Assembly: GCF_027474845.2 (NCBI RefSeq)
Contig: NZ_CP107031.2
Coordinates: 1,626,501-1,690,500, forward strand
Source: Maribacter aestuarii
GTDB lineage: Bacteria > Bacteroidota > Bacteroidia > Flavobacteriales > Flavobacteriaceae
DNA length: 64,000 nt
Direction of reading: 5' to 3'
A program made the position numbers and the translations under genes. Positions 51,330-55,974 of the stretch are shown one piece after another. Below the pieces are notes generated by a model, which was not told where the DNA came from, did no database searches, and saw nothing but the letters and a program-made list of their open reading frames with translations. How positions within the stretch are numbered: position 1 is the first letter of the stretch; each line of letters starts with the position of its first letter.

Positions 51330-52544
51330 TTGAATTTTCCGCTCTACATTGCCAAAAGGTATGTACGTTCTAAAAGCAGCCAGAACGCGGTAAACATCAT
51401 TAATTTTATCACTTTTCTGGTCATTGTCATCGGTTCCGCGGCCCTGTTCATCGTGCTTTCTGGTTTTGCTGGCTTAAAAACCTTTAGCCTCTCCTTTACC
51501 AATTCTTTTGACCCGGAACTCAAAGCACTGCCTGCAACGGGAAAGTTTTTTGAAATAACCCCTGAACAGGAGAAGCAACTCAGTGAAATATCAGGCTTGG
51601 CTATTTATTCCAAAGAAATTGAGGAAAAGGTTTATCTGGAACACCGAGGTAAAAATCACATTGCCTATATCAAGGGAATTGACTCCAACTATGTAAAGTC
51701 CATAAAAGTGGACAGTATCCTGTATTTGGGAGATTGGACCATTAACGAGCAGCAGGTCGTTTCCGGAATCGGGATTGCCAATATTCTTGGTGTCACCATC
51801 AACCAATTTAGAAGTCCGTTGCAAATCTACGCGGTGAAACCAGGAACGGGTTCCATCTCCCAGAGTATGGGCAGTTCCAATTCATTGTACAACCAATTAC
51901 CCATGGTCATTGGAGGGGTTTACGCGGTGGAGGCCGATTTGGACAACAAATATGTTTTTGCCGATTTGCCCTTGGTACAAGCTTTGCTCGAAAAGAAGGA
52001 GAACCAAATTTCCGGCATCAATTTTAAACTGAAAGAGGATGCCGATGCCCTGACCGTAAGAGCGGACATTAAAGCGGTCTTAGGGGAATCCATCGTTCTA
52101 AAAAACAGGGAAGAGCTGAACAGTACACTCTATAAGATGTTGAACACCGAAAATTTGGCCACGTACCTCATCTTTACGCTGGTCTTGATCATCGCCCTGT
52201 TCAATGTAGTTGGCGCCATTATCATGATGATCTTGGACAAACAGCAGAATTCCAAAACGCTATACAGTTTTGGAACTACCATTAAAGAACTACGCTCCAT
52301 CTATTTTATGCAGGGGATTTTGGTTACGAGTATGGGTGGCATCATCGGGGTCTTGTTGGGTTCGCTTTTGATATGGTCGCAAACCACCTTTGGGTGGCTA
52401 CGTATAACCCCATCCTTGGCCTATCCGGTAGAATTTAAAATTATGAACGTCTTTTTGGTATTGGCCACTATTGTAGTGCTGGGCGTTATCGCCTCTAAAA
52501 TTGCCAGTAGCCGCATCAATAAAAAACTGATTTCCCTACACTAG
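51330..52544 (+). CDS. FtsX/LolE-like ABC transporter permease
   Basis: A 404-residue inner-membrane permease starting with TTG. It has one N-terminal segment (about residues 21-45), a periplasmic domain of roughly 220 residues and three C-terminal segments (about 276-300, 328-350, 370-392), the MacB/LolCE topology. NFPLYIAKRYVRSKSSQNAVNIIN is the typical start of Bacteroidota relatives. These extract lipoproteins or other substrates with a separate ATPase, which is not adjacent here. Confidence 0.9.
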   Translation: MNFPLYIAKRYVRSKSSQNAVNIINFITFLVIVIGSAALFIVLSGFAGLKTFSLSFTNSFDPELKALPATGKFFEITPEQEKQLSEISGLAIYSKEIEEKVYLEHRGKNHIAYIKGIDSNYVKSIKVDSILYLGDWTINEQQVVSGIGIANILGVTINQFRSPLQIYAVKPGTGSISQSMGSSNSLYNQLPMVIGGVYAVEADLDNKYVFADLPLVQALLEKKENQISGINFKLKEDADALTVRADIKAVLGESIVLKNREELNSTLYKMLNTENLATYLIFTLVLIIALFNVVGAIIMMILDKQQNSKTLYSFGTTIKELRSIYFMQGILVTSMGGIIGVLLGSLLIWSQTTFGWLRITPSLAYPVEFKIMNVFLVLATIVVLGVIASKIASSRINKKLISLH

Positions 52545-53534
52545 ACTAAACTGGTGGTCCCCGAACTTTTCCAGTACCTCGTCAAAAGCATTAAAAACGC
52601 TGGCGGAATCATCGCTGGTCACCATTTTCATACGGTACTCCTTAAAATTGGGGATGCCTTTGAAGTAATTGGTATAGTGTCTGCGGGTTTCAAATACGCC
52701 CAAGGTTTCCCCTTTCCAATCTATGGCCATTTGCAAATGTCGCCGTGCAGCCTCCACCCGCTCTGGCATAGTCGGTAGCTCTAAATAGGTGCCCGTTTCA
52801 AAATAATGTTTTACCTCTCTAAAAAACCAGGGATAACCAATACTGGCACGTCCGATCATGGCACCGTCCAAGCCGTATTCGTCCCGCATCCTCATAGCCG
52901 CTTCGGGCGAATCTACATCCCCATTTCCAAAAACCGGAATGTGCATTCTAGGGTTATTCTTCACCGCAGCAATAGGTTCCCAATTAGCTTTGCCCTTGTA
53001 CATCTGTGCCCTGGTCCTGCCGTGGATGGCTATGGCCTTACATCCTACGTCTTGCAGCCGCTCCGCCACTTCTACAATTTTAATGGAATGCTCGTCCCAC
53101 CCCAGACGCGTCTTTACCGTAATGGGTAATTTGGTATGTTTCACCATGGCCTCGGTAAGCGAAACCATTAAATCGATGTCTTTTAAAATTCCGGCGCCGG
53201 CGCCTTTGGATACCACTTTCTTAACGGGACATCCGAAATTAATATCGATGATATCCGGATTGGATTTTTCCACAATCTCCACGGATTGCAACATGGAATC
53301 CAGGTTAGCGCCAAAAATCTGTATCCCCACCGGACGTTCTTTTTCATAGATATCCAGCTTCATTACACTTTTGGCAGCATCCCTTATTAAGCCTTCCGAG
53401 GAAATAAACTCGGTATACACCACGTCCGCCCCTTGCTCTTTGCAAAGCGCACGAAAAGGTGGGTCGCTCACGTCTTCCATAGGGGCGAGAAGCAAAGGGA
53501 ATTCCGGTAATTTTATGTCTCCTATTTTAGGCAC
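52536..53534 (-). CDS. dusB: tRNA-dihydrouridine synthase B
   Basis: A 332-residue flavin enzyme reducing uridine in tRNA, starting with GTG at 53534. The opening PLLLAPMEDVSDPPFRALCKEQ is diagnostic, the catalytic cysteine is in DINFGCPVKKVVSKGAG near residue 100, and FMN contacts lie in IAIHGRTRAQMYKG and GNGDV. It converges on the permease gene and their ends overlap by 9 bases. Confidence 0.95.
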   Translation of the reverse strand: MPKIGDIKLPEFPLLLAPMEDVSDPPFRALCKEQGADVVYTEFISSEGLIRDAAKSVMKLDIYEKERPVGIQIFGANLDSMLQSVEIVEKSNPDIIDINFGCPVKKVVSKGAGAGILKDIDLMVSLTEAMVKHTKLPITVKTRLGWDEHSIKIVEVAERLQDVGCKAIAIHGRTRAQMYKGKANWEPIAAVKNNPRMHIPVFGNGDVDSPEAAMRMRDEYGLDGAMIGRASIGYPWFFREVKHYFETGTYLELPTMPERVEAARRHLQMAIDWKGETLGVFETRRHYTNYFKGIPNFKEYRMKMVTSDDSASVFNAFDEVLEKFGDHQFSLV

Positions 53535-53608
53535 GGACCTTATTGATTTTGGATTGCAAAGTTAAGAAAAAATGGAATGAAGGGTTTTAAAGAAGTTAAT
53601 AGCACTCC

Positions 53609-53719
53609 GTTGTTATTTCGAGTAGTTTTTCAACGGATGAAAAAAATGTTTTCAAGAAGAGTCGAAGAAGCAATTTGTTCTCGATACACTTCGCCTATTG
53701 TGAAGCGCTCGAACTGACA
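53609..53719 (+). repeat. 111-bp palindromic repeat, copy A
   Basis: First of five direct copies. It begins GTTGTTATTTCGAG and ends CGCTCGAACTGACA, with an inner TTCTCGATAC arm. The left half differs from the consensus most. A 50-base spacer starting TTCTGAAGAA links it to copy B. Confidence 0.85.
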
Positions 53720-53769
53720 TTCTGAAGAAATGTAAAGGTTTCGTTTTTTTAAGAGTTAAATAGCTACCT

Positions 53770-53880
53770 GTTGTCACTTCGAGTGGTTTTTCAACATTGG
53801 AGAAAAATTGTATCGAGAAGTTTTCTTGCTCCAAACGGTTCTCGATACACTACACGTGCTGCGTAGCACTCGAACTGACA
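53770..53880 (+). repeat. 111-bp palindromic repeat, copy B
   Basis: Best-preserved copy. Outer arms TGTCACTTCGAGTG (53772-53785) and CACTCGAACTGACA (53867-53880) pair at 13 of 14 positions; inner arms GTATCGAGAA (53810-53819) and TTCTCGATAC (53839-53848) pair perfectly. It ends 40 bases before the GIY-YIG start codon. Confidence 0.9.
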
Positions 53881-53920
53881 GTGTGCTAGAAAGTACAAAG
53901 ATTTTTATTAGTTTAATCAA

Positions 53921-54211
53921 ATGAAGCTGTTCTATGTTTATATCCTTGAGTGTTCCGATGGTACTTATTATACGGGTATAACGTCGGATATGGAGAAAAG
54001 GTTAGCCTCACATAATATTGGTGCCTATCCAAACAGTTATACCGCTTCACGTGGACCACTGAAACTTGTATTTTATTGTGAATTCACGGAGGCAGCTGTT
54101 GCTATCGCTACAGAAAAACAAATCAAAAAATGGTCAAGAGCTAAGAAACAGGCCCTAATCTCAGGTCAGTTCGATAAGTTGCCAAATCTTGCCAAGAAAA
54201 AGTTCTCGTGA
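53921..54211 (+). CDS. Solo GIY-YIG nuclease domain protein (YhbQ/UPF0213-like)
   Basis: A 96-residue protein that is essentially one GIY-YIG nuclease domain. The paired motif is VYI (residues 6-8) and YTG (17-19), the catalytic arginine is R27 in DMEKRLASH and the metal glutamate is E65 in ATEKQIKKW. The C-terminus is basic. All catalytic residues are present, so it should cut or nick DNA. It lies inside an array of 111-bp palindromic repeats: two copies upstream and three downstream, the nearest 5 bases after its stop. This suggests the nuclease acts on, or spreads with, the repeats. Confidence 0.92.
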   Translation: MKLFYVYILECSDGTYYTGITSDMEKRLASHNIGAYPNSYTASRGPLKLVFYCEFTEAAVAIATEKQIKKWSRAKKQALISGQFDKLPNLAKKKFS

Positions 54212-54216
54212 TTTAT

Positions 54217-54327
54217 GGTGTCACTTGGTGTAGTTTGTCGACATAGGAGACAAGTGGTGTCAAGAAGCGTGTATGTCATACCTAGTTCTCGATACACTTC
54301 GCCTCTGGCGAAGCACTCGAACTGACA
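54217..54327 (+). repeat. 111-bp palindromic repeat, copy C
   Basis: Starts 5 bases after the GIY-YIG stop codon. It has a perfect third hairpin, CTTCGCC-TCT-GGCGAAG at 54297-54313, within the 3' half, and ends CACTCGAACTGACA. Its following spacer (TTCTGAAGAAATGT start) matches the one after copy A. Confidence 0.9.
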
Positions 54328-54375
54328 TTCTGAAGAAATGTGAGGTTAGGTTTTTTAAAACCTAAATAGTATTCC

Positions 54376-54485
54376 GTTGCCATTTCGAATTGTTTTTAGA
54401 TACGGGAGAAAAACTATCTCAAGAAGCTTTCATGGTTGAAACGGTCTCAACACACTACACCTGCGGCGTAGCTCTCGAAGTGACA
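54376..54485 (+). repeat. 110-bp palindromic repeat, copy D
   Basis: Most diverged copy: CATTTCGAATTG at the left, CTACACCTGCGGCGTAG hairpin near the right, ending in TCGAAGTGACA. One base shorter than the others. Confidence 0.8.
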
Positions 54486-54509
54486 TTCTAAAGAACTAAA
54501 TAGTAATCC

Positions 54510-54620
54510 GTTGTCACTTCGAGTGGTTTTTCGACGCAGGAGAAAAATTGTATCGAGAAGTTTTTGTTTTTCAAATGGTTATCGATGCACTTCGCCTATT
54601 GCTAAGCACTCGAACTGACA
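54510..54620 (+). repeat. 111-bp palindromic repeat, copy E
   Basis: Left half nearly identical to copy B (GTTGTCACTTCGAGTGG, then TGTATCGAGAAG). It ends CACTCGAACTGACA, 5 bases before the 3' end of the convergent M28 peptidase gene, and could also act as that gene's transcript end. Confidence 0.9.
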
Positions 54621-54625
54621 ATATC

Positions 54626-55846
54626 CTAAAACTTTATTTCCGCCGATATTTTCTCCCCATTCCTATCCACCGTGACTTCAGTGGTGTTACCTTCCTCGAA
54701 TACCGAAAGGGCCCGCATGTAGCTCATCATATCGGTGACGAGACTATCGCCCAACTGTATAACGACATCGCCTTTTTGGAGTCCGGCCGCAGCTGCCGGT
54801 CTGCCTTCCGTAACGCCGTCTATCCGCATGCCTTTCCCATCAAAAAGATAATCGGGCATTACACCGAGAGCCACTTTAAAACGCGGAACATCCTCGCTTT
54901 CATTTTTGGTGGTTCGAAACGCTAGTTTGGCATCATCATCCAATTCGGAGATGATATGGGTTATATATTCCTCGATCATTCGCATACCATCGTAATTCAG
55001 TTTTTCCGAATCGTCAGAAGGTTTATGGTAATCCGAATGTTGACCCGTGAAAAAGTGCAAGGCAGGTATGTCCTGTAGGTAAAAGGAAGTATGGTCCGAA
55101 GGGCCCATTCCAGATTCGCTCAGCACCAACTTGAAATCGGAATTATTTGAATTCAGCACTTGGTTCCAAATAGGGGACGTACCTACTCCGCTAATGGACA
55201 AAGTATTATCGTCACGCAGCCTCCCCACCATATCCATATTCAACATATAGCTGGCCTTTGGTAAATCTATGGTCGGATTTTTAGTAAAATAATTGCTGCC
55301 CAAAAGTCCCATCTCTTCCCCTGAAAAAGCAAGGAACAAATAATTACTTCCTTTTAGAGAGTCCTTTAACCTTTCTGCCAGTTGCAGTAGAATGCCCACC
55401 CCGCTCGCATTGTCATCGGCGCCATTATGAACGGCGTCCCCCTCTGCGTATAAAGAGCCTTCGCCTCCCAATCCCAAATGATCGTAATGGGCGCCGATGA
55501 TAACCGTTTTATCGGCTTGGTTATCCACATAGCCAATTACATTGGTTCCCGTTATGGTACTGTCCCCGTTTACGAATTCAATTTCCGTGTGCGGGTCGGT
55601 TTTGGGCTTAAAGGTGAAGGTTTGAAAGTAAGTGCCTGCGTTACCCTTGGGAGCTAAACCAATGCCTTCCATACGTTTCTTAATGTACATCGCGGCTTTT
55701 AGCTCATATTCGGTACCGGTTTCCCTACCTTGGAGGCTATCACTGGCCAAATATGCAATATCCTCCTCTAGGGAAATTGATTTTTGTTTTTCTGATTTAC
55801 AGGATATAAATAATGTGATAAGTAGGTAAAAAACAGTTCTATTCAT
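54626..55846 (-). CDS. M28 family metallopeptidase with C-terminal PDZ domain, lipoprotein
   Basis: A 406-residue aminopeptidase-type enzyme from ATG 55846 with a lipoprotein signal (LITLFISC). Zinc ligands are in IGAHYDHLG, NGADDNASGVG, FSGEEMGLLGS, LNMDMVGR and TGQHSDYHKPSDD, the complete M28 set. Residues about 325-406 form a PDZ domain (KVALGVMPDYLFDGKGMRID, then GDVVIQLGDSLVTDM), which may guide substrates. It probably degrades peptides in the envelope. Its 3' end abuts repeat copy E. Confidence 0.92.
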   Translation of the reverse strand: MNRTVFYLLITLFISCKSEKQKSISLEEDIAYLASDSLQGRETGTEYELKAAMYIKKRMEGIGLAPKGNAGTYFQTFTFKPKTDPHTEIEFVNGDSTITGTNVIGYVDNQADKTVIIGAHYDHLGLGGEGSLYAEGDAVHNGADDNASGVGILLQLAERLKDSLKGSNYLFLAFSGEEMGLLGSNYFTKNPTIDLPKASYMLNMDMVGRLRDDNTLSISGVGTSPIWNQVLNSNNSDFKLVLSESGMGPSDHTSFYLQDIPALHFFTGQHSDYHKPSDDSEKLNYDGMRMIEEYITHIISELDDDAKLAFRTTKNESEDVPRFKVALGVMPDYLFDGKGMRIDGVTEGRPAAAAGLQKGDVVIQLGDSLVTDMMSYMRALSVFEEGNTTEVTVDRNGEKISAEIKF

Positions 55847-55974
55847 GATATTTGTAATTATCAATACGAAGATAATACTTAAATAAGCCCTGAACATTAT
55901 CAGGGTTAATTCAGCGTTCCGATTCGAGGTCGTAAATCGGATTTAAAGTGGGCGTTCAATAAAATAAACATCGC

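Follow-up and report, generated by a model that had tools for sequence, protein, structure and literature searches.

A REP-like repeat array in Maribacter aestuarii, built around a GIY-YIG nuclease that probably takes the place of a transposase

What is a solo GIY-YIG nuclease gene doing in the middle of an array of palindromic repeats, and do gene and repeats belong together? The question is raised by an intergenic stretch of 1091 bp (53535..54625) in the window, as we call the whole 64,000-nucleotide piece of the M. aestuarii genome analysed here. This stretch contains the whole element and is bordered by two genes on the minus strand, one (52536..53534) that from its sequence we take to encode a tRNA-dihydrouridine synthase-like protein, and one (54626..55897) that codes presumably, also judging from its sequence, for an M28-like peptidase with a PDZ-like end. 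The first-pass annotation of this DNA had described five copies (A to E) of a 111-bp repeat, and these are indeed present far beyond chance (families D1-D3), with copies A-B matching copies C-D at an E value of 2e-45 when the array is compared with itself by BLAST. The reading of each copy as a single palindrome with three stems had to be replaced. Each copy of ca. 111 bp is one dimer of two inverted hairpin units, i.e., the window contains ten units in five head-out dimers, each made of one plus and one minus unit with their TGTC tags outward and 14–15 bases between them. The outer arms recognised earlier correspond to the 5' half of either unit and the inner arms to its 3' half. The outer arms do face each other, but imperfectly, TGTCAC.. 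against ..CTGACA giving a C-C mismatch, a type of mismatch that the repeat family shows repeatedly.

The left arm had been held common to all five copies and is exact in two of them, dimer B (left unit 53772..53821, plus strand, TGTC, C type; right unit 53837..53880, minus, TGTC, G type) and dimer E (54512..54561, plus, TGTC, C type; 54577..54620, minus, TGTC, G type, ending 5 bases before the stop codon of the neighbouring gene), the types being those of the base S described below. In the other three it is worn. Dimer A has the tag TGTT in its left unit (53611..53660, plus) and a right unit with TGTC of G type (53676..53719, minus), the left unit of dimer C has diverged (54219..54268, plus; right unit 54284..54327, minus, TGTC, G type), and dimer D has TGCC on the left (54378..54427, plus) and TGTC on the right (54442..54485, minus). 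The whole genome has 15 arms, 7 of them in the window array (control, 1). Gene-less copies of the same family, distant from the GIY-YIG genes identified, were seen at 3851075-3853277 (L011), 3587650 (L012) and 2140912; the three in L011 are ca. 159 bp long with a longer middle. That such dimers without a gene occur elsewhere in the genomes agrees with the earlier description of the family as non-autonomous.

The nuclease gene sits between copies B and C, as had been proposed. It is an open reading frame of 96 residues (53921..54211, plus strand), UPF0213-like and matched by the Pfam family PF01541 (E 9e-17), and copy C follows 5 bases after its stop codon by the earlier count, its first tag beginning at 54219. 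Y7, Y17, G19, R27, H31 and E65, which we take to be the catalytic set of the GIY-YIG superfamily, are all present. The first five are conserved in 81 of 81 sequences and E65 in 79, the two exceptions (L014 and L091) being shortened reading frames. The predicted structure (pLDDT 87.7) would be one small domain filling the 96 residues, with UPF0213 1zg2 (E 2e-6) and 1ywl as its nearest fold matches, followed by Slx1 (E near 0.01). These two UPF0213 proteins, by their titles structural-genomics entries in the PDB, resemble the window protein also in sequence over most of its length. Carriage of the nuclease clade by phages was considered and rejected, with 24 matching phage records all under 60% identity and a single scan that confirmed no viral contig.

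The unit itself, 44–50 bp in the window, reads [C/T]GTC-A(G/C)TTCGAGTG-(small hairpin)-TTGTATCGAGAA(G/C)T, and comprises an outer stem of 5 bp, then an inner zone and, at the apex, a hairpin. Aligning one unit for each of 80 loci, window included, with GTC and a paired S (G or C) required, gave the consensus [C/T]GTC-A-S-TTCGAGTG, a variable part, and TTGTATCGAGAA-S-T. Upstream of the tag conservation drops immediately to 0.2 bits, an absence that the scan did not impose, and for this reason we place the end of the unit at the tag. The median length in the family is 52. Among 542 units, collected by a scan that favours the tag and the arm letters and tolerates two substitutions per half, 301 had TGTC and 189 CGTC. 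The two S positions, ca. 40 bases apart, were complementary in 479 of the 495 units with G or C at both (16 were not); the scan did not require them to agree, and the 47 units with another letter there fall outside this count. Since both S types occur within 69 of 81 loci, the pairing goes beyond what shared descent alone would give. The apical part folds at a mean of -3.9 kcal/mol against -0.8 for shuffled sequence, and the variable middle was stabler than 95% of its own shuffles in 50 of 79 cases. Loci from the wider class have the same layout with other stems, for example AGGTC/GACCT or ACCCT/AGGGT, in a scan that demanded pairing. A strict pairing detector was dropped as proof of covariation, being circular, and its parallel control was flawed as well, ACTTC/GAAGT being identical read either way.

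The two types of unit are not combined at random. Counting only units with a paired G/C at S, inverted neighbours no more than 60 bases apart were of opposite type in 99 of 114 plus-minus pairs (99:15) and in 107 of 117 minus-plus pairs (107:10), while neighbours in the same orientation and within the same distance were always alike (24/24 and 22/22, i.e., 46:0). The arrays therefore resemble one heterodimer repeated in tandem, and the long palindrome of such a dimer bears a C-C or G-G mismatch. Plus-minus pairs that span the nuclease gene were also of opposite type in 37 of 42 cases, most often with the C unit on the left and the G unit on the right. Of the 79 loci that have units on either side of the gene, the window among them, 46 enclose it directly in one head-out pair; L027, L034 and L053 have a single gene-enclosing pair and nothing more. 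A gene within one head-out pair is likely the basic form of the element. Duplicated genes were also seen; L084 has a second GIY-YIG gene in tandem with units in between, and G218 (L160/L169) has two copies 506 bp apart.

A protein scan gave 289 relatives of the nuclease, and the best 80, all Bacteroidota by record title, were kept. In every one of these best 80 of 289 a unit was located within 400 bp of the nuclease gene, and in 78 the units flanked it on both sides (L020 and L065 had them downstream only). Up to 500 bp from the gene the density was 5.45 units per kb, and past 1 kb it was 0.05–0.2. When all 80 loci were resampled once by a first-order Markov model, 16 units appeared against 532 real ones, and 117 of 1560 mock genes, drawn more than 1.4 kb from the nuclease in the 78 loci with room, had a unit within 400 bp. 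Farther out in the class, 29 more relatives were compared. A strict tagged unit lay within 500 bp in 21 of them (on both sides in 10), other repeated 10-mers surrounded the gene in L097, L100, L110, L117, L118 and L122, and in L103 and L113 tagged hairpins were legible on both sides, so that two scripts found repeats beside the gene in 27 of the 29 and reading did so in the other two. Three or more repeated 10-mers occurred within 500 bp in 22 of these loci and farther away in 8, at densities of 63 and 3.9 per kb, respectively.

These loci, together with four of ten proteobacterial ones described below, bear out the proposal of a repeat family with a resident nuclease, and orthologues that never adjoin such repeats, which the annotation had named as evidence against itself, are not what was found. 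The tag base (T or C) follows the nuclease as well. It requires 4 changes on the nuclease tree (97 columns, 43 of 74 inner branches open) against ca. 25 when shuffled, and none of 500 shuffles was as low. Tag type and nuclease are co-inherited, something that physical linkage alone could cause without recognition. Other GIY-YIG clades gave a different picture, with no unit of this sequence in 14 of 17 loci; L166 had four units of another stem type, and L190 and L199 had tRNA-like matches. The other solo GIY-YIG gene of M. aestuarii (L008) had no unit, which rules it out as the partner of these repeats, a GIY-YIG domain in a 598-residue frame (L009) had one weak and distant match, and another in a 462-residue frame (L010) had two, ca. 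390 and 850 bp past the domain.

Does the element move? The insertion-free orthologous sites that the annotation had recommended for comparison do exist. Nine of 24 congeners have both flanking genes adjacent and no array, the gap being 39–42 bp in five of them against 1091 bp at the window; the remaining congeners are uninformative, with no peptidase match within the 1.5 kb examined. The window array is an insertion. A sister genome (G220) has it at the same site, where the assembled side shows fewer dimers and the nuclease frame is interrupted by a stop. Within the genus the nuclease gene occupies at least four different sites. At the second the element of G201 consists of six units and the gene (781 bp), and is 82% identical over 780 bp, tag to tag, to that of G203, the 1.5-kb flanks of which do not match. 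All ten congeners with both flanks of this second site on one contig have it vacant, with a length difference of 823–839 bp against the 781 bp of the element. With 40–60 bp extra and the sequences diverged, a target duplication would be hidden, and neither this nor a base-exact footprint could be resolved at site 1, site 2 or a lone gene-less head-out dimer (G201:1139127-1139261) whose site is not cleanly alignable. In some places the element appears to be vertically inherited, namely between what we take to be an osmC-like gene and recJ in L024, L027, L034, L049 and L053, and at site 4 in five congeners. The genus has a further interspersed repeat (L239:561-690), ca. 1.3 kb from the lone dimer, to which 16 matches were listed in G203 and G206.

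Short palindromes of a similar kind have been described before. CGTC-type REPs are one of two known REP classes, and in the main text of the article by Di Nocera et al. (2013; PMC3733652), where 'GIY' does not occur, they apparently have no dedicated transposase, their mobilisation is left open, and transposase genes lie beside them in only a few fortuitous cases. The repeats described there share with the window units the unpaired [C/T]GTC tag at one end (CGTC, TGTC or CCTC in the class), the A-T first stem pair, the prevalence of inverted dimers (five of five pairs in the window and the inverted neighbours family-wide), many heterodimers and dispersed gene-less copies (PMC3733652). They are, however, 20–40 bp long with stems of 8–9 bp, a loop of 4–5, a CCA tail and A-T in the first two pairs, whereas the window units are 44–50 bp long, with an apical hairpin, no CCA and G-C or C-G as second pair. 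Because of this greater length, the second pair and the lack of CCA we call the window units CGTC-like and not plain CGTC REPs; the rhizobial units described next do fit. One flavobacterium, if its name is taken as a guide, is 'G. forsetii'. It is among the CGTC-positive species listed in the same article (PMC3733652).

Of 38 plasmid records with a homologue of the nuclease, ten proteobacterial loci were examined. Canonical CGTC REPs surround the homologue in four, all alphaproteobacterial (L267–L270; Azospirillum lipoferum, Sinorhizobium meliloti, Rhizobium and Shinella), most of the units having CCA tails, with 18 units within 700 bp and one farther. Here size, stem and tail nearly agree with the published class, and the rhizobial-type units, CGTCAT.., have A-T in both first pairs with a pattern that required CAT. 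The strict scan found no CGTC hairpins in the other six. Of these, L263 and L264 carry inverted repeats of another sort that lack the tag, L265 has a homologue match split in two pieces, and L266, L271 and L272 have no such repeats. In A. lipoferum (L267) sufB and sufC of the suf operon are separated by the nuclease gene and two CGTC dimers. A literature search by titles and the starts of abstracts, with subscription papers largely outside its reach, found no paper linking GIY-YIG to REPs, which is not proof of absence.

Our answer to the initial question is that the element is probably (at roughly 0.68) a REP-like replicator in which a GIY-YIG nuclease stands in for the transposase. The case rests on the unit structure and its pairing, the constant association with one clade, the co-inheritance of tag and nuclease, the kept catalytic-type residues and tag-bounded elements at different sites. 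With REP/RAYT systems and REPINs (see also PMC3733652) it shares short palindromes that flank one enzyme gene, inverted dimers, and enzyme-less copies, but the enzyme there is a HUH tyrosine transposase and the tag GTAG, and within the array the one recognisable gene is the GIY-YIG nuclease. The building block would be a hairpin unit of ca. 50 nt with an unpaired [C/T]GTC tag, C-type and G-type units being paired head-out. The resident protein would be a site-specific nuclease like Ssn of Neisseria (2025), reportedly one of a group of GIY-YIG nucleases with thousands of homologues, specific for single-stranded DNA and with repeats (NTS) as targets. It would recognise the tagged hairpin, most likely while single-stranded during replication or DNA uptake, and nick at or near the tag. 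That it cleaves the repeat we regard as quite likely, provided that Ssn nucleases act as reported. Nicking followed by host repair or recombination could carry copies of the dimers, and of the element with its gene, to other sites, for which we would give about even odds. GIY-YIG enzymes are hydrolytic, and copying by break and repair would therefore be expected, not covalent strand transfer of the RAYT type. For the growth of tandem arrays, slippage or recombination from one dimer to another would suffice.

The Ssn nucleases too are solo GIY-YIG proteins, with catalytic-type residues as here, and have genomic repeats as presumed target, and they probably cover the biochemistry. The present case differs in being in Bacteroidota, in a gene-bearing element with empty sites and with its unit structure and dimer asymmetry worked out, the activity being putative. 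The same likeness leads to a possible, if doubtful, alternative, that an Ssn-like enzyme serves its host by cutting tagged repeats in incoming single-stranded DNA, tuning natural transformation or genome exchange, with the array as a target reservoir. The Neisseria enzyme is said to cut repeats of hundreds of copies and to modulate transformation. The dRS3 repeats of Neisseria are CGTC-1 REPs according to the main text of PMC3733652, and the vertical inheritance at some sites would agree with a service of this kind. It sits badly with the different sites within one genus, the empty sites and the few repeats in the genome of M. aestuarii. The odds of this service and of the replicator overlap because the cutting step is common to both.

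We consider it improbable that another enzyme, e.g., a tyrosine transposase, moves the repeats and that the nuclease gene is cargo between them. What speaks for such an arrangement is that many genomes have repeats without the close nuclease. The exact arm YGTCASTTCGAGTG was found in 27 of 197 genomes of the class, its backwards control in 6 with a single match each. Two or more arms occurred in 20 genomes, a strong nuclease match (our own cut-off, E ≤1e-18) in 53, and both in 14 (Fisher p 2.6e-5). Six of the 20 (G009, G030, G049, G062, G068 and G184) thus have arms without a strong match, and G062 has a nuclease remnant with three stops. Conversely, 39 of the 53 have fewer than two exact arms, for at least part of which other stem types account. 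Within the genus the mean was 19.2 arms in the genomes with the close nuclease clade (n=10, M. aestuarii included) and 6.1 in those without (n=15; p 2.7e-4). Repeats widespread in the absence of the nuclease were the other finding that the annotation had set against its own reading. Arms are indeed fewer where the clade is missing, but 13 of the 15 congeners without it still have at least one exact arm and 11 at least three (backwards control 0–2 per genome), and G231, which belongs to a different family and lacks an intact close copy, has 73 arms. In part, this adverse finding was made. REPs can outlive lost RAYTs, and by that analogy the repeats in nuclease-less genomes may be relics, undated, which still count against the replicator. 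Against a mere passenger stand the association in 80 of 80 loci, the same arrangement in two phyla, the tag type that tracks the nuclease tree, and the few and fortuitous transposase neighbours in the published account (PMC3733652).

A role in RNA, as terminators or mRNA stabilisers beside short genes and with no function at the DNA level, is very improbable. The units fold stably and here are intergenic, but they lie in both orientations around the gene, the elements occupy different sites as a block, and no Rfam family exceeded its gathering threshold in 53500-54700 (best E 0.15, 17.5 bits against a gathering score of 117), which rules out a known RNA family as explanation. GIY-YIG is a classical homing domain and empty sites exist, but a homing-type element whose nuclease cuts the empty allele is hardly credible for an intergenic gene with no constant target, in at least four different sites of one genus, and with its 96 residues taken up by a single predicted GIY-YIG-like fold.

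New here are the link to CGTC-type REPs, the anatomy of unit and dimer, and the evidence of insertion. The hairpin repeats beside its relatives in many other bacteria suggest that the nuclease is the long-missing partner that handles, and maybe spreads, one of two big classes of palindromic repeats. We propose tentatively, at somewhat less than even odds, that the dedicated enzyme which the CGTC REPs appear to lack is this GIY-YIG protein. It would stand for an independent second way to keep and spread palindromes, in which a nuclease hydrolyses and the host repairs, conserved between Bacteroidota and Alphaproteobacteria, the two-type dimer being the transposable form. If so, a REP system would work without a transposase, and many candidate nuclease-target pairs could be read directly from genomes. 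It would also fit the published puzzle of the heterodimers, the mismatch keeping the long palindrome imperfect; Di Nocera et al. (PMC3733652) note in the main text that heterodimers are favoured in CGTC REPs for no obvious reason and suggest protection from SbcCD-type clearance. With a GIY-YIG partner recurring in two phyla, a single 96-residue protein and a single oligonucleotide would suffice to put the question to a test.

Solo GIY-YIG genes of a second clade (loci including L189, L190, L192, L199 and L208) adjoin tRNA genes in 4 of 8 loci scanned. The neighbour is tRNA-Arg in M. aestuarii (L008:1398-1749; 723161-723358 in the genome), and tRNA-Asp (L190, L208) or tRNA-Ala (L189) in relatives. 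Two repeated pieces in L192 resemble tRNA 3' ends, and G213 has three tandem GIY-YIG copies in steps of 403 bp, alternating with tRNA 3'-end repeats. This clade is possibly an element of its own with tRNA 3' ends as its repeats.
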